Of a stretch of 34,087 bases of DNA, positions 3 through 32,393 are shown one piece after another. The DNA comes from a bacterium. Its GTDB lineage: Bacteria > Electryoneota > JAOADG01. The notes below the pieces were generated by a model. The model worked only from the letters and a program-made list of their open reading frames with translations, did not search any database and was not told the origin of the DNA. The number at the start of each line of letters is the position of its first letter. Position 1 is the stretch's first letter. The stretch spans positions 1-34,087 of the forward strand of contig JAOTSC010000014.1 in NCBI GenBank assembly GCA_030247525.1, written 5' to 3'. The position numbers were made by a program, and so were the translations under genes.

Positions 3-1934
3 CGAACCCCGAGTCCCGAATCCCGAACCCCTACGAATGGAACCCCGATTGCCCAATCCCCATTGCCCATCACCGAGCTTCTCCTGCCAACATCCTTAGG
101 AGAATTGCGAACGGCGCTGCCAAGTGTGTATCAAGTGTCGGCAAATGGAACACGAAATGAAATCGAAGCGTCCTTTCAACTAACCGACAAGAACACCTTC
201 GGCATCACACTACCTAACGGTTACAACCCCGACCATTCCTTGCGCATTGATCCCCTCATCTACAGCACATTTTTAGGGGGAAGTAGTGGAAGTGAGTATG
301 GACTAAGTTTGGTTAGCGACAATATCGGCGGTGTATTTGTCAGTGGATCGTCTAATAGCGTAGACTTCCCAATTACTCCCGGTGCTTACGATTCCACGAT
401 GAGAAATCACCCTTGTTTCGTTACCCATTTGAGTAGTGATGGTACGCAAATTCTATCAAGCACGTTTATTGGTGGTACCGGTGGTGAACAACCCTATGGG
501 ATAGCGAACGATGGAAGCGGAGGAGTTATCATCGCTGGAAACACGTACAGTTATGACTACCCTATAACTTTATGGGCATTTGACCCAACGTTTAATGGAA
601 TGCACACCAATTGTTTTGTCACTCGATTGAATAGTAGCGGTTCCCAGCTTATCTATAGTACCTATCTTGGTGGAAGTAACGGGACTGAGAGCCAAGCATT
701 AGCGCTTGCTGGCGATGGGAATGGCGGTGCAATCATCACTGGATATACCGGAAGTAACGACTTTCCATCAACTCAAAACGCCTATGACAATACTTACAAT
801 GGCGCTTTTGACTGCTTTGTTACATATCTAAATAATACCGGTAGAGGTTTACTCTTTAGCACATTTCTTGGTGGCAGCGACGACGATGTGGAAGCTGCAA
901 TCGACCGAACGAACAATGGTGAAATCTATCTTACCGGTGGCACTCGTTCCAGCAATTTTCCCACGACTCCGAACACGTATGATAGTTTGTTTAATGGAGT
1001 GCGCGATTGTTTCCTCGTGAAACTCAATTCTACCGGTTCGCAGCTTGAATATAGCACCTTTGTGGGTGGTACCGGCGACGATATGGGACACGGCATCGCA
1101 GTAGACGTAGATGGTATTGTTGCAGTTACCGGTGGGGTGCGAGGCAATGACTTCCCGACTACGACTGGTGCATTCGATACCTCCTACAATGCGAGTATCT
1201 CTGATTGCTTCTTGCTAAAAATGAACTGCACTACCTCACAATTGCTTGCCAGTACTTTTCTTGGCGGGAATGGTCTTGACCAAGGTGAATCTATCGTAAT
1301 TAATCCCGGTAATGGCAGTTTAGTAGTCGTTGGTGAGACAAGTAGCTCCAATTTTCCTTGTTCAAGTAATTCTATTGATACAACATTTAGTGGTGGGACT
1401 TATGATGGTTTTGTGAGTCAGTTTGACAGCACCTTATCAACCCTTTTATATAGTACTTATCTTGGTGGTGCAAGTATAGATGTTGCGTGCGATATCGTTT
1501 ATACCGGGAATGACAGCATTATTGCTTATGGATTTACTGAAAGTTCAAATTTTCCGACCACAACCGCGGCATTTGACTCTACCTATAATGGTGGCTCCGA
1601 TTGCTTCGTCACGAAGCTAAGTTTACGAGCCGACACCAGTGATGTTGCCTCGGAACATCTTTTTCTTCCTTTAAGGTTTTCATTGTATCAAAACTACCCC
1701 AACCCCTTCAATTCCTCGACATCGATTTCTTATTCACTACCGAAACCGGGGAATGTTGACCTAAGACTGTTCGATATCACAGGTCGGGAAGTCGCTACTC
1801 TCGTAAATCAAAAACAAGAAACCGGAAGTTATCGCGTGACATTCGATGGCAAGAATCTTTCGTCGGGGACCTATTTCGTACGGATGCAAGCCGGAGAATT
1901 TGTCAAGACACAGAAAATGGTGCTCTTAAGGTGA
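3..1934 (+). CDS. SBBP beta-propeller repeat protein with T9SS C-terminal sorting domain, 5'-truncated by window edge
   Basis: Likely secreted or cell-surface protein. The reading frame is open from base 3, and the stretch before the TTG at 63 already encodes residues (PIAQSPLPI) that also precede the same domain in the second paralogue. The TTG is therefore an internal codon and the true start lies outside the window. A conserved segment with LGELRTALPSVYQ and GYNPDHSLRIDPL is followed by about seven propeller-like repeats, each beginning with a variant of YSTFLGGS and carrying NFPTT.G.FD. The C-terminus is a classical type IX sorting domain with YQNYPNPFNSSTSISYSLP, DITGREVATL and SSGTYFVRM, ending KMVLLR. 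T9SS export and surface anchoring are known for this domain. The ligand or function of the propeller is unknown. The gene is mirrored by the minus-strand paralogue near the right end. Confidence 0.88.
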   Translation, partial: RTPSPESRTPTNGTPIAQSPLPITELLLPTSLGELRTALPSVYQVSANGTRNEIEASFQLTDKNTFGITLPNGYNPDHSLRIDPLIYSTFLGGSSGSEYGLSLVSDNIGGVFVSGSSNSVDFPITPGAYDSTMRNHPCFVTHLSSDGTQILSSTFIGGTGGEQPYGIANDGSGGVIIAGNTYSYDYPITLWAFDPTFNGMHTNCFVTRLNSSGSQLIYSTYLGGSNGTESQALALAGDGNGGAIITGYTGSNDFPSTQNAYDNTYNGAFDCFVTYLNNTGRGLLFSTFLGGSDDDVEAAIDRTNNGEIYLTGGTRSSNFPTTPNTYDSLFNGVRDCFLVKLNSTGSQLEYSTFVGGTGDDMGHGIAVDVDGIVAVTGGVRGNDFPTTTGAFDTSYNASISDCFLLKMNCTTSQLLASTFLGGNGLDQGESIVINPGNGSLVVVGETSSSNFPCSSNSIDTTFSGGTYDGFVSQFDSTLSTLLYSTYLGGASIDVACDIVYTGNDSIIAYGFTESSNFPTTTAAFDSTYNGGSDCFVTKLSLRADTSDVASEHLFLPLRFSLYQNYPNPFNSSTSISYSLPKPGNVDLRLFDITGREVATLVNQKQETGSYRVTFDGKNLSSGTYFVRMQAGEFVKTQKMVLLR

Positions 1935-28490: not shown

Positions 28491-28607
28491 TATCTTGGAT
28501 ATTCTATTTTCCGTTTTACAGTGTTTACTGTGTTGGGCGAATTCTCTGAGCGCCCTTTGTTGTAGTAGGAACAGACCTCAGAAAAGTCCGTCCTCGTTTT
28601 TGAGTAC

Positions 28608-28635
28608 GGGCGAACCTTGTGTTCGCCCTTTTGTT
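28608..28635 (+). terminator. Intrinsic terminator downstream of upp
   Basis: GGGCGAAC-cttgt-GTTCGCCC followed by TTTTG, of the same family as 2277-2297 and 7208-7228. A weaker GGGCG...CGCCC hairpin occurs near 28536-28553. Confidence 0.7.
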
Positions 28636-29114
28636 TTGGGTTGGTAGTTTTAGGTTGGTTGTTTTGTACTGGTGGTTACGGGTTTCCAAACCCGTTCCGT
28701 AGGGGCGTGCCGCGCACGCACTTCTGTTTGTATCGTAGGGGCGGCTGGCAGCAGCCCTTTCTTTAGTAGGGACAGATCCCAGAAAAGTCTGTCCATGTCA
28801 TTGCGAGCGTAGCGAAGCAACCCCGCAGGGCTCACCGAAGGTAATCCCATTTGCTATCGTAGGGGCGGCTGGCAGCCGCCCTTGTTTCAGTAGGGGCAGA
28901 CCCTCTGGGTCGCCCTTTTGTTTTTACAGGTCTGGAGACCTGTCTGTACCCAATACAGGCGGGGACGCCTGTCTCTACCCAATTTCGGGCGGACACGATG
29001 GTCCACCCCTACCCACCCCCTACCACCTTACACCCTACACCTTACACCTTTCACCCTTCACCATTTTTTTCGATCCCCATTGCCCATTCCCCTTCACCCT
29101 ACACCCTTCACCTT
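28636..29114. repeat. Mosaic of palindromic repeats downstream of the second SBBP gene
   Basis: No gene. Modules in order include ACGGGTTTCCAAACCCGT (28678-28695), a capped GGGCGTGC element and GGGCGGCTggcAGCAGCCC. These are followed by an ACAGATCCCAGAAAAGTCTGT element, ATTGCGAGCGTAGCGAAGC, and GGGCGGCTggcAGCCGCCC near 28865-28883. GGGCAGACCctctGGGTCGCCC, CAGGTCTggAGACCTG and ACAGGCGgggaCGCCTGT come next. The stretch ends in CACCTTACACC-type low-complexity sequence. In inverse orientation it parallels 1932-2297. Confidence 0.85.
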
Positions 29115-32100
29115 TCACCTTAGCAGCACCATCTTCTTTGTTTTCACAAAATCCCCGGATTGCATCCGCACGAAATAGGTTCCCGACGAAAGATGTTGTC
29201 CATCGATGGTCACTCGATAACTTCCGGTTTGCTGTTTCTGGTTTACAAGGGTTGCGACTTCCCGACCGGTGATGTCGAATAGTTTTAGATCGACAAATCC
29301 CGGTTTTGGTAGTGAGTAGGAAATGGTTGTGGAAGAGTTGAAGGGGTTGGGGTAGTTTTGGGATAACGAATAGGTTTGTGGAAAAAGAATCCGTTCTGTT
29401 GCAATATCGGTCGTATCGATGTGGATTTTTGTCAAAAAAGCATCTTCAAATCCAGCATTATAAGTTGGGTCGAAACCGTTTGGTGTCGTTGGAAAACTCG
29501 GACTGTCGGTAATACCGGAAACATAAATATCGTTATTGTTATCGACGGTCACACAAAATCCATCATCAGAGTTTGAGCCGCCAAGGTATGTACCATATAG
29601 TAAGTTGGAACCGGTACTATCCAATACTGCGACGAAGCAATCACCGCCGCCATTATAAGTAGCATCGAAACAGTTGGCAGTAACCGGAAAATCAGCACTA
29701 TTGGTCTGTCCAGTGATGAGGATGCTTCCATTAGTAGATAGATCAGAAGGGGCTGCCAAATCAGAACCGGTTCCACCGAGAAGTGTGCTAAAAACGACGC
29801 TTCTACCATTCTGATTGAACTTTGTGACAAATGCTTTTCTTGTTCCTAAATGCAACGTATCGAAAGCGCCGGGAGTCGTGGGAAAGTCCAAACTCGATGT
29901 GTAACCTGTAACTAGTACCTCATTTGTGTTCAACACTTTGACCGTCTGTGCTACATCATAGGAAGAACCACCCCAATAAGTGCTGTACAGCAATTGTGAG
30001 CCGTCGGCAGTTAAGCAAAGGAGAGCACAATCATAGCCCTCCCCACCGCCGAAAGACGTATCAATCGCATCAGCCGTTATCGGGAAATCAGAACTTAGCG
30101 TGGTAGGTGCTGCCCAGAGGTAACCGGAACGATCGTAATCGATGGCTAAGATACCATCGATACTGTTACCACCGAGGAAAGTACAAAACAGTAGTTGGGT
30201 TCCCGAAGCATTGAGATGAAGCAAGAAACCATCGCTATTGCCGTGCATCGAATTTTGCAAAGCGTTTGTTATCGGAAAGTTCGCACTTGCAGTTAAACCG
30301 GACGCGTAGTAACCGCCAATACCATCGGAACATAAATCGTCTAATTGATCGGTGGAACTTCCACCGATGACAACACTATACTGTATCGCCGAACCGGTGC
30401 TATTCAGTTTTGTTACAAAACCATCTCCATCACCACCCCGTGGACCAAAACTGCTGGTGGTCGGAAAATCACCGGATCTCGCTATACCTGCGACAACAAC
30501 ATTGCCAACACTATCGATTAAAACACCGGTGCAACCATCATCTCCTCCACCACCGATTGAAGTACTAAACAATAGTTGTGATCCGGATGCATTGAAATGG
30601 GTGATGTAACCGTCCCGTGCGCTAATGGTTGGGTCGAATGCGCCTGGAGTTGTCGGGAAGTTCCAACTTTCCGTTGCCCCGACCAGAATTATTCCACCGT
30701 TACCATCAAGACACATATCCAAACCATTATCATCGTCATTACCCCCCAAAAAGGTGCTATAGATGAGGGGATCGATGCGTAAGGAATGGTCGGGGTTATA
30801 ACCGTTCGGCAGTACGATCCCGAACGTGTTTTGGTCGGTGAGTTCAAATGTCGCTTCGATTTCCGTTCGACTCCCATTTGCCGAAATCTGATACACACTC
30901 GGCAACGCAGTTCGCAATTCCCCCAATGATGTTGACAGGAGAAGCTCGGCAATGGGCAATGGGGATTGGGCAATAGGGGATGGGTGTTGGGTGTTAGGTG
31001 ATGGGTAGGGGCGGACTCCCATGTCCGTCCGCGTCGTTTCTGTGGTAGCGGGCGTATGCCATACGCCCCTACTGGAATCCATTACGCCATCGGACAAGAA
31101 TGTCCGATGTACGGTTCCTCCAGTAGTTCGTGAATCGCGTAGCAGGGCACGAACATTTACATCGGGCGACCCAGAGGGTCTGCCCCTACTGGAACATTTG
31201 TCAGACAGGATTGTCTGACCTACACCTGTAACTGCGGGCGTGCGCGGCACGCCCCTACTGTTCCCAGTCCCCCGTTCCCTGTTCCCTTTATCCAAATGAG
31301 ATTGCTTCGGCGCAGGGCGCTCTCGCAATGACAGTAACGATTCCGGATCCCCGAACCCCGAAATCCGATCCCCTTCTAATCCCTCGACAGACATCCGAAT
31401 TTGTGACGGATCGAAGCCGGGATGGACGATGAAATCGAATTCTAATTTGCCTTCGTTTTCATACCATTCGATATCGATCCCATCCCACACTTCCCGATAC
31501 ACGACCGTAGAAAAGTTGCGACAATTTGGAGCCCACTTCGAAGAATCATTCCCCAAGAAGTAATTATTCTTCCAGGGGAGTTCACCCTGCGCTTCCACGC
31601 TTTGTGCTTCCGCACGGTGTAAGGTGGAAAAAGATTGGTGTAGGGTGTAAGGTGTAGGGTGTAAGAAATCGGGTGAAGGGTTTAGGGTATAAGGTGTAGG
31701 GTGTTGAGTAGAAAAAGATTGGAAAAGGTTCTCGGAATCTTCTTTTGTTGACCTTTCACCATTCACCTTTAACCCTTCACCCTTGACCTTTGACCCTTCA
31801 CCCTTGACCTTTGACCCTTCACCCTTGACCTTTGACCCTTCACCCTTGACCTTTGACCCTTCACTTTTCACGAAGTGAAACTTCAGTGCATGAGATATCA
31901 TTGGAACATTTTCACGCGCGGGATGGCGGCGCAGCATTTCCGGTAAGTCATTTTCCATTACGTCGTCGGACAAGAATGTCCGACGTACGGAGCCACCTGT
32001 GGGCGGCTGCCAGCCGCCCCTACCCTGTTCCCCATTGCCTATTGCCTGTTCCCCATTCCCCAAATGAGATTGCTTCGTCGCTGCGCTACCTCGCAATGAC

Positions 32101-32393
32101 AATCCAGTTTCCTGAGCCCCGAAATCCGAATCCCGAGCCCCCGGTTGCGTTAGCAGTAGCGTTATCCCATCGCGTTCGAGGAACCATGTCATCCCATTCT
32201 TCGCTTGACACTTATATAGCACGCGAGCATCCCACTGCCCCTTGTTCTCGGTAAAGAAAAACGGTTTTGGTACTGAGGTTGACGAGGGTTTCGTGAGGGG
32301 TTTATGAGAGGATGCGTGGTTATCCGAAGCGGAAGCGAACTCCGGAAAGCAGAACAACAGGACGAAAAGAGAAGATACAGTTGTTAATTTCAT
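29115..32393 (-). CDS. Secreted SBBP beta-propeller protein with T9SS sorting domain and in-frame repeat insertions
   Basis: 1092 residues from the ATG at 32393, chosen because GAGAGG lies just before it and a clean signal peptide follows (MKLTTVSSLFVLLFCFPEFASA); the upstream start at 32420 adds nine residues without support. After a segment with FFTENKGQWDARVLYKC, known at the start of many SBBP proteins, the frame crosses long stretches of repeat DNA. These include GSKVKGE heptads at about residues 175-210, RTFLSD-encoding palindromes and SPNTQHPSPI low complexity. Then come LGELRTALPSVYQ, about seven propeller repeats (YSTFLGGN and variants) and a T9SS C-terminal domain with YQNYPNPFN-like SQNYPNPFNSSTTISYSLP, ending KMVLLR. 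It is predicted to be exported and surface-bound. The core is paralogous to the gene at the left edge. Confidence 0.9.
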   Translation of the reverse strand: MKLTTVSSLFVLLFCFPEFASASDNHASSHKPLTKPSSTSVPKPFFFTENKGQWDARVLYKCQAKNGMTWFLERDGITLLLTQPGARDSDFGAQETGLSLRGSAATKQSHLGNGEQAIGNGEQGRGGWQPPTGGSVRRTFLSDDVMENDLPEMLRRHPARENVPMISHALKFHFVKSEGSKVKGEGSKVKGEGSKVKGEGSKVKGEGLKVNGERSTKEDSENLFQSFSTQHPTPYTLNPSPDFLHPTPYTLHQSFSTLHRAEAQSVEAQGELPWKNNYFLGNDSSKWAPNCRNFSTVVYREVWDGIDIEWYENEGKLEFDFIVHPGFDPSQIRMSVEGLEGDRISGFGDPESLLSLRERPAPKQSHLDKGNRERGTGNSRGVPRTPAVTGVGQTILSDKCSSRGRPSGSPDVNVRALLRDSRTTGGTVHRTFLSDGVMDSSRGVWHTPATTETTRTDMGVRPYPSPNTQHPSPIAQSPLPIAELLLSTSLGELRTALPSVYQISANGSRTEIEATFELTDQNTFGIVLPNGYNPDHSLRIDPLIYSTFLGGNDDDNGLDMCLDGNGGIILVGATESWNFPTTPGAFDPTISARDGYITHFNASGSQLLFSTSIGGGGDDGCTGVLIDSVGNVVVAGIARSGDFPTTSSFGPRGGDGDGFVTKLNSTGSAIQYSVVIGGSSTDQLDDLCSDGIGGYYASGLTASANFPITNALQNSMHGNSDGFLLHLNASGTQLLFCTFLGGNSIDGILAIDYDRSGYLWAAPTTLSSDFPITADAIDTSFGGGEGYDCALLCLTADGSQLLYSTYWGGSSYDVAQTVKVLNTNEVLVTGYTSSLDFPTTPGAFDTLHLGTRKAFVTKFNQNGRSVVFSTLLGGTGSDLAAPSDLSTNGSILITGQTNSADFPVTANCFDATYNGGGDCFVAVLDSTGSNLLYGTYLGGSNSDDGFCVTVDNNNDIYVSGITDSPSFPTTPNGFDPTYNAGFEDAFLTKIHIDTTDIATERILFPQTYSLSQNYPNPFNSSTTISYSLPKPGFVDLKLFDITGREVATLVNQKQQTGSYRVTIDGQHLSSGTYFVRMQSGDFVKTKKMVLLR
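31005..31259. repeat. Array of six capped palindromes inside the SBBP coding frame
   Basis: Successive hairpins: GTAGGGGCGGACT...GTCCGTCCGC; GGGCGTATgccATACGCCC ending CCTAC (31050-31072); CATCGGACAagaaTGTCCGATG (31088-31109); GGGCGACC...GGTCTGCCC ending CCTAC at 31189; GTCAGACAggatTGTCTGAC (31200-31219); and GGGCGTGCgcgGCACGCCC ending CCTAC (31236-31259). All lie within an uninterrupted minus-strand reading frame. Confidence 0.88.
31620..31870. repeat. GGTGTAAGG low-complexity region with 21-bp tandem repeat, inside the SBBP frame
   Basis: The left part is GGTGTAGGGTGTAAGG-like and the right part CACCTTTGACC-like, so the region is a long degenerate inverted repeat. About 31772-31865 is a tandem array of roughly four to five 21-bp units (ACCCTTCACCCTTGACCTTTG), read on the minus strand as GSKVKGE heptads. 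Confidence 0.85.
31964..32023. repeat. Two further palindromes inside the SBBP frame
   Basis: CGTCGGACA-agaa-TGTCCGACG followed by TAC (31964-31988), then GGGCGGCT-gcc-AGCCGCCC with a CTAC cap (32001-32023). Both are read through by the minus-strand frame, giving RTFLSD and GGWQPPTGG respectively. Confidence 0.85.

Follow-up and report, generated by a model that had tools for sequence, protein, structure and literature searches.

Repeats of several palindrome families are read in frame in three DUF7948 loops of an exported beta-propeller protein family

The stretch of DNA analysed here (the window, 34,087 nucleotides at its full length) carries two members of one protein family, of which the complete one is the subject of this study (Table 1). 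Its product consists of a signal peptide (called by reading the sequence), the domain DUF7948 (PF25778), an SBBP beta-propeller and a T9SS C-terminal sorting domain, in this order, and the matches to DUF7948, the SBBP repeats and Por_Secre_tail all exceed the curated Pfam cut-offs. The match to DUF7948 falls into three stretches because repeats interrupt the domain. The repeats thus do not form a region of their own that separates signal peptide from propeller, as an earlier note on this DNA had it, but lie within the N-terminal DUF7948. Directly downstream of both window paralogues (28560-29110 and 1935-2300), the same palindromes and heptamers occur as dense arrays.

Table 1. Features of the window, with insert boundaries taken from the paralogue alignment and insert coordinates derived from the translation.
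Feature	Position	Strand	Description
Host gene	29115..32393	-	1092 aa; ATG at 32393, GAGAGG ahead of ATG
DUF7948, split by three inserts	30765..32255	-	Pfam PF25778, E 1.4e-45, three stretches
DUF7948, own-genome pieces	32121-32255, 31362-31646, 30765-30947	-
Loop 1 insert, 66 aa	31956..32153	-	LSLRGSAATKQSHL (F1), heptamer words, GGCTGCCAGCC palindrome, RTFLSD (F2); pLDDT <50
Loop 2 insert, 94 aa	31587..31868	-	KGEGSKV 21-nt units (3 x heptamer), then TLHPTPYTLH heptamer array; pLDDT <50
Loop 3 insert, 134 aa	30948..31349	-	F1, GTAGGGGC-type palindromes, QTILSD (F2b), F3, RTFLSD (F2), low-complexity words to IAQSPLPI
F1 repeat TCATTGCGAG..GAAGCAATCTC, copy 1	32066..32099	-
F1 repeat, copy 2	31298..31331	-
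F2 palindrome CGTCGGACAAGAATGTCCGACG	31964..31985	.	read RTFLSD
F2 palindrome CATCGGACAAGAATGTCCGATG	31088..31109	.	read RTFLSD
F2b palindrome GTCAGACAGGATTGTCTGAC	31200..31219	.	read QTILSD
F3 palindrome GTAGGGGCAGACCCTCTGGGTCGCCC	31164..31189	-	GTAG-tagged
F3-type palindrome GGGCGTATGCCATACGCCC	31050..31068	.
F3-type palindrome GGGCGTGCGCGGCACGCCC	31236..31254	.
F3-type palindrome GGGCGGCTGCCAGCCGCCC	32001..32019	.
Heptamer array AAGGGTC/AAGGGTG...	31748..31871	-	read as KGEGSKV units
Second paralogue	3..1934	+	cut by contig start within loop 3 repeats

Between positions 31005 and 32145 we counted seven palindromes with perfect arms (arm of at least 7, loop of at most 12), compared to a mean of 0.75 and a maximum of 3 in 60 shuffles. 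Together with two interrupted palindromes of the TCATTGCGAG..GAAGCAATC type, one of the GTAGGGGC..GCCC type and the heptamer arrays of the same segment, this bears out the at least eight palindromes described earlier. The whole segment lies in one unbroken minus-strand frame inside the ORF 29115-32393, and the three hairpins are read in the same phase (RTFLSD, RTFLSD and QTILSD), again as claimed; the repeats are indeed found in the segment named, but their true extent is slightly wider (30948-32153).

For an insert-free homologue (L229), AlphaFold gives a high-confidence all-beta domain, in which the site of loop 1 lies between strands 36-42 and 72-79, that of loop 2 at 80-91 and that of loop 3 at a two-residue beta-hairpin turn (173-174). 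In the AlphaFold (AF2) model of the window protein the core reaches a pLDDT of about 85-97, against values of mostly about 30-50 in three parts of the modelled stretch (residues 45-98, 141-209 and 297-426). Because the core is confident and the insert residues are not, the inserts are predicted to be flexible, disordered loops at three strand-connecting sites of a folded beta domain. The flexible stalk that the earlier note suggested as possible is rejected on the Pfam pieces together with the AF2 model, which place the inserts in loops of the globular DUF7948. Sequence and fold searches of the PDB with DUF7948 gave nothing significant.

Over 2300 insert codons the used frame is free of stops, compared to 412 in the 11,356 codons of the five remaining frames. 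Among 20 aligned family members, dN/dS in the one shared frame is 0.02 for the core upstream of loop 1, 0.06-0.12 for the cores that separate and follow the inserts, and 0.42-0.58 for the inserts themselves, so that relaxed selection within the inserts is flanked by strong selection around them. Since the cores are under selection in one frame and the inserts hold no stops, translation must begin before the repeats, and a true start after them is excluded by the selected core upstream of the first insert. The repeats of several families are read in frame and, judging from the purifying selection on either side of the open frame, they appear to be translated; the frame appears to be maintained by selection and the insert residues to be weakly constrained. 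As dN/dS in the inserts never exceeds 1, no diversifying selection was detected there by this measure. Thus, of the suggestion that the segment is fast-varying, the differences in modules among paralogues remain, but not a signature of diversifying selection.

Silent divergence in the inserts (about 0.17-0.24) is clearly below that in the cores of the same pairs (0.49-0.59), and loop 3 is less divergent than core D in 49 of 49 pairs. This suggests that the inserts may be younger than the gene copies or homogenised among them, although the alignments behind the comparison are short and partly filtered (similar blocks were kept) and constraint on the palindromes at the DNA level could also lower the divergence. 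Without filtering, the contrast remains at loops 2 and 3 but is weak at loop 1. Copying of inserts was also approached by correlating distances, but core segments were uncorrelated even with each other. Distances among the cores are saturated to a degree that precludes a tree test.

The organism's own genome (G000; 3.59 Mb in 305 contigs) yields 33 matches to DUF7948, which represent some 20 genes or more. Many of these genes break off within the repeats where a contig ends (contigs C54, C143, C153, C140, C203, C222, C231 and C248 end in them), making the true number of paralogues uncertain; the repeat inserts probably cause the assembly breaks. Several family genes span their inserts within a single contig. 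Loop 1 is without an insert in the paralogues on C85 and C112 (VSKEDRTKEAIV.P), and the remaining paralogues are differing mosaics of shared modules, with RTFLSD present once or twice, so the variation between paralogues that had been expected is there. The KGEGSKV array differs in length among paralogues by steps of 21 nt, i.e. three heptamers, and thereby keeps the reading frame. The propellers (29115-30760 in the window, and those of the paralogues) share about 38% identity, compared to 80-92% in the DUF7948 cores and 74% in the T9SS tail, and by this comparison the propeller is the variable part of the family.

Within the family, F1 is found in one phase in 10 of 10 cases, F2 in 14 of 14 and F2b in 2 of 2, while F3 occurs in both orientations (11 sense, 2 antisense). 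Inspection of F2 shows no stop in any of the six frames, and its constant phase therefore reflects descent, copying or selection and not stops in the palindrome itself. The paralogues are not independent of one another, and common ancestry or the copying of a single cassette may account for much of the agreement in phase. A common phase of all in-gene copies, which the earlier note proposed to check, holds within the family but fails as a universal rule, since the in-frame palindromes in genes for an N6/N4 DNA methylase (L061:7818-8900, C5), HypF (L140:6008-8341, C83) and Lon (L097:13581-16217, C38) use other phases or orientations. In the Lon protease, the repeat-derived stretch follows the catalytic domain, in the C-terminal part.

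A census of five palindrome families, with a strict pattern for F1, covered 2.32 of the 3.59 Mb and found 39 palindromes in 42 kb of family ORFs, 179 between genes and 4 in those three other genes. The densities per kb are 0.926, 0.404 and 0.0022 in family ORFs, intergenic DNA and other genes, respectively (Fisher p 5e-60). With the segment as a blastn query, 143 matches were intergenic, among them composite ones 86-141 nt long, and 78 lay in the family; none was found in other called genes.

The same loops were surveyed in 40 other genomes, 11 of which carry DUF7948. The loop 1-2 region, taken over 24 distinct genes of the phylum, holds 22 palindromes within 4146 nt against 3.4 expected from shuffles, whereas the flanking core of these genes has none in 4104 nt; the loops of 40 homologues outside the phylum have 3 in 6168 nt, with 4.5 expected. 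Five related genera (genomes G008, G013, G028, G035 and G036) contributed loop palindromes, and in the four tested (all but G036) these belong to the genome's own repeats, so other genomes' own palindromes occupy the same loops. In G008 one family (TCATCCTGA..GAAGGACC) has 17 copies, of which 4 are in DUF7948 genes (binomial p ~2e-8, uncorrected for relatedness), and two copies of a second (CTTCCCCCAC..GTGGGGGAAGG) are also in DUF7948 genes. In G013, 4 of the 10 distinct copies of its own family are in such genes, and the families of G035 and G028 have 13 and 4 copies. The paralogues of G008 carry different palindromes at the same codons, and one has none at all. Two of its genes (L262 on C16 and L256 on C3) have another insert, GVGAHSSVPVG (HINMNMNANSVGAHSSVPVG), in a further DUF7948 loop. 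Loop 2 of the G028 gene contains the F1 repeat in another frame, read VIASAAKQSL. This is the sole strict F1 match in that genome (G028:C1:129222-129246, L180), within the DUF7948 gene, while F1 is abundant in the window's genome; it is possible that the gene was acquired by transfer together with its F1 insert.

Judged by sequence, the palindromes are REP-like. The tag GTAG stands at the 5' end in 73 of 102 F3-type palindromes, although it was not required in the search, and the 3' side is unconserved; with 95 copies in 2.32 Mb, 79 of them intergenic, F3 is a high-copy element mainly between genes and fits the GTAG REP super-family in tag and copy number. F1 copies read TG-TCATTGC..GCAATC(T/C)C, and their TGTC end and AT-starting stem resemble the CGTC super-family of REPs, whose loop length and CCA-like tail they do not match strictly. 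Both super-families have been described inside genes, including coding copies, in several species (Di Nocera et al. 2013, PMC3733652), and our repeats resemble these intragenic REPs in the tag of F3 and in the end and stem of F1. In Xanthomonas recB, different REPs lie at about the same site (PMC3733652). As in the REP/RAYT systems (PMC2817692; PMC3116915), short palindromes are combined with RAYT-like genes in the genome, but the REPs of those studies are extragenic and the three RAYT-like proteins here match NF047646 with E 1e-16 to 1e-19, below the NCBIfam cut-off. One decayed RAYT-like gene (L255, G000 C3:32160) has F2-type palindromes, not F3, at its end and upstream, and is possibly a former REPtron.

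The earlier note had named Rickettsia palindromic elements (RPEs) as the precedent, and like these the repeats here are palindromic, of several families and inserted in frame in genes; RPEs sit in functional genes (Ogata et al. 2000, 2002, as cited in PMC10969869). We therefore take the repeats to work like RPEs and do not class them as members. RPEs are spread over many unrelated genes, whereas here 39 copies are in one exported family and 4 in three others, and the repeats, unlike RPEs, are at three loops and mixed with heptamer repeats. Cyanobacteria have short tandemly repeated repetitive sequences, heptanucleotide arrays scattered in the genome. The arrays here are scattered likewise, but some are translated, in 21-nt steps.

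In-frame palindromes, intragenic REPs and one case of different REPs at about the same site are established knowledge. What appears to be new is that the repeats are concentrated in a single family of exported paralogues, that palindromes and heptamer arrays are mixed in three DUF7948 loops, and that unrelated palindromes have repeatedly been captured by these loops in different genera. We found no report of one domain capturing different REP families in its loops in several genera and about 20 paralogues in a literature search that covered few subscription papers, and text searches gave no description of the F1 sequence and no mention of DUF7948.

Taken together, we consider it probable that REP-type palindromes and heptamer repeats, residing mainly between genes, entered three surface loops of DUF7948 in a T9SS-exported propeller family. 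The loops would tolerate long disordered inserts, while insertions elsewhere in genes would be purged, and only those that keep the frame would survive. Palindromes may have been brought by RAYT-like transposases or related single-strand events, slippage could alter the heptamer arrays in 21-nt steps, and recombination among the about 20 paralogues would shuffle and spread composite cassettes. The inserts would then most likely be near-neutral passengers forming long flexible loops, and not a purpose-built variation system.

Selection for a varying exposed surface, with the family as a reservoir of variants, would also account for the different module combinations of about 20 paralogues, for T9SS export and for the recurrence in related genera, and the propellers diverge as well (38% identity, against 74-92% in domain cores and tail). 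Yet dN/dS in the inserts stays below 1, the modules are drawn from an intergenic pool and not from a dedicated cassette store, and the organism is not known to be under pressure from a host, phages or immunity, so we regard such adaptive diversity as unlikely. Doubtful to a similar degree is the stronger idea that the loops of DUF7948 have evolved into a landing site throughout the phylum, where mobile palindromes and paralogue recombination remake the exposed loops as a diversity-generating use of REPs.

It is considerably less probable that the palindromes act as mRNA hairpins, for stability or pausing for export, with the peptide as a by-product: a role as RNA hairpins has been proposed for REPs elsewhere (PMC3733652) and palindromic arms are kept here in several copies, but the inserts are confined to protein loops and do not occur where the gene encodes the propeller, and much of their length is heptamer repeat and not hairpin. 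We give about as little credit to a transposase or hotspot that recognises the DNA at these loops, since the DNA next to them is not the same in different genera or at the three loops and homologues outside the phylum have DUF7948 without an excess of palindromes, although it would fit the G008 paralogues, in which the same codons hold different palindromes. That the open frames are due to chance, pseudogenes or chimaeric assembly is the least credible, even with many paralogues stopping at contig ends within repeats: the cores before, between and after the inserts share one frame under strong purifying selection, several genes cross their inserts in one contig, and the same architecture is found in independent genomes.

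Non-coding repeats that become protein are usually met as isolated examples, whereas here one domain offers many in parallel: within one genome it exists with and without inserts, three loops and several families of repeats are involved, and in related genera different palindromes have been captured at the same loops. The system allows frame choice, loop tolerance and insert age to be measured, and provides a handle on the movement of REP-like elements.
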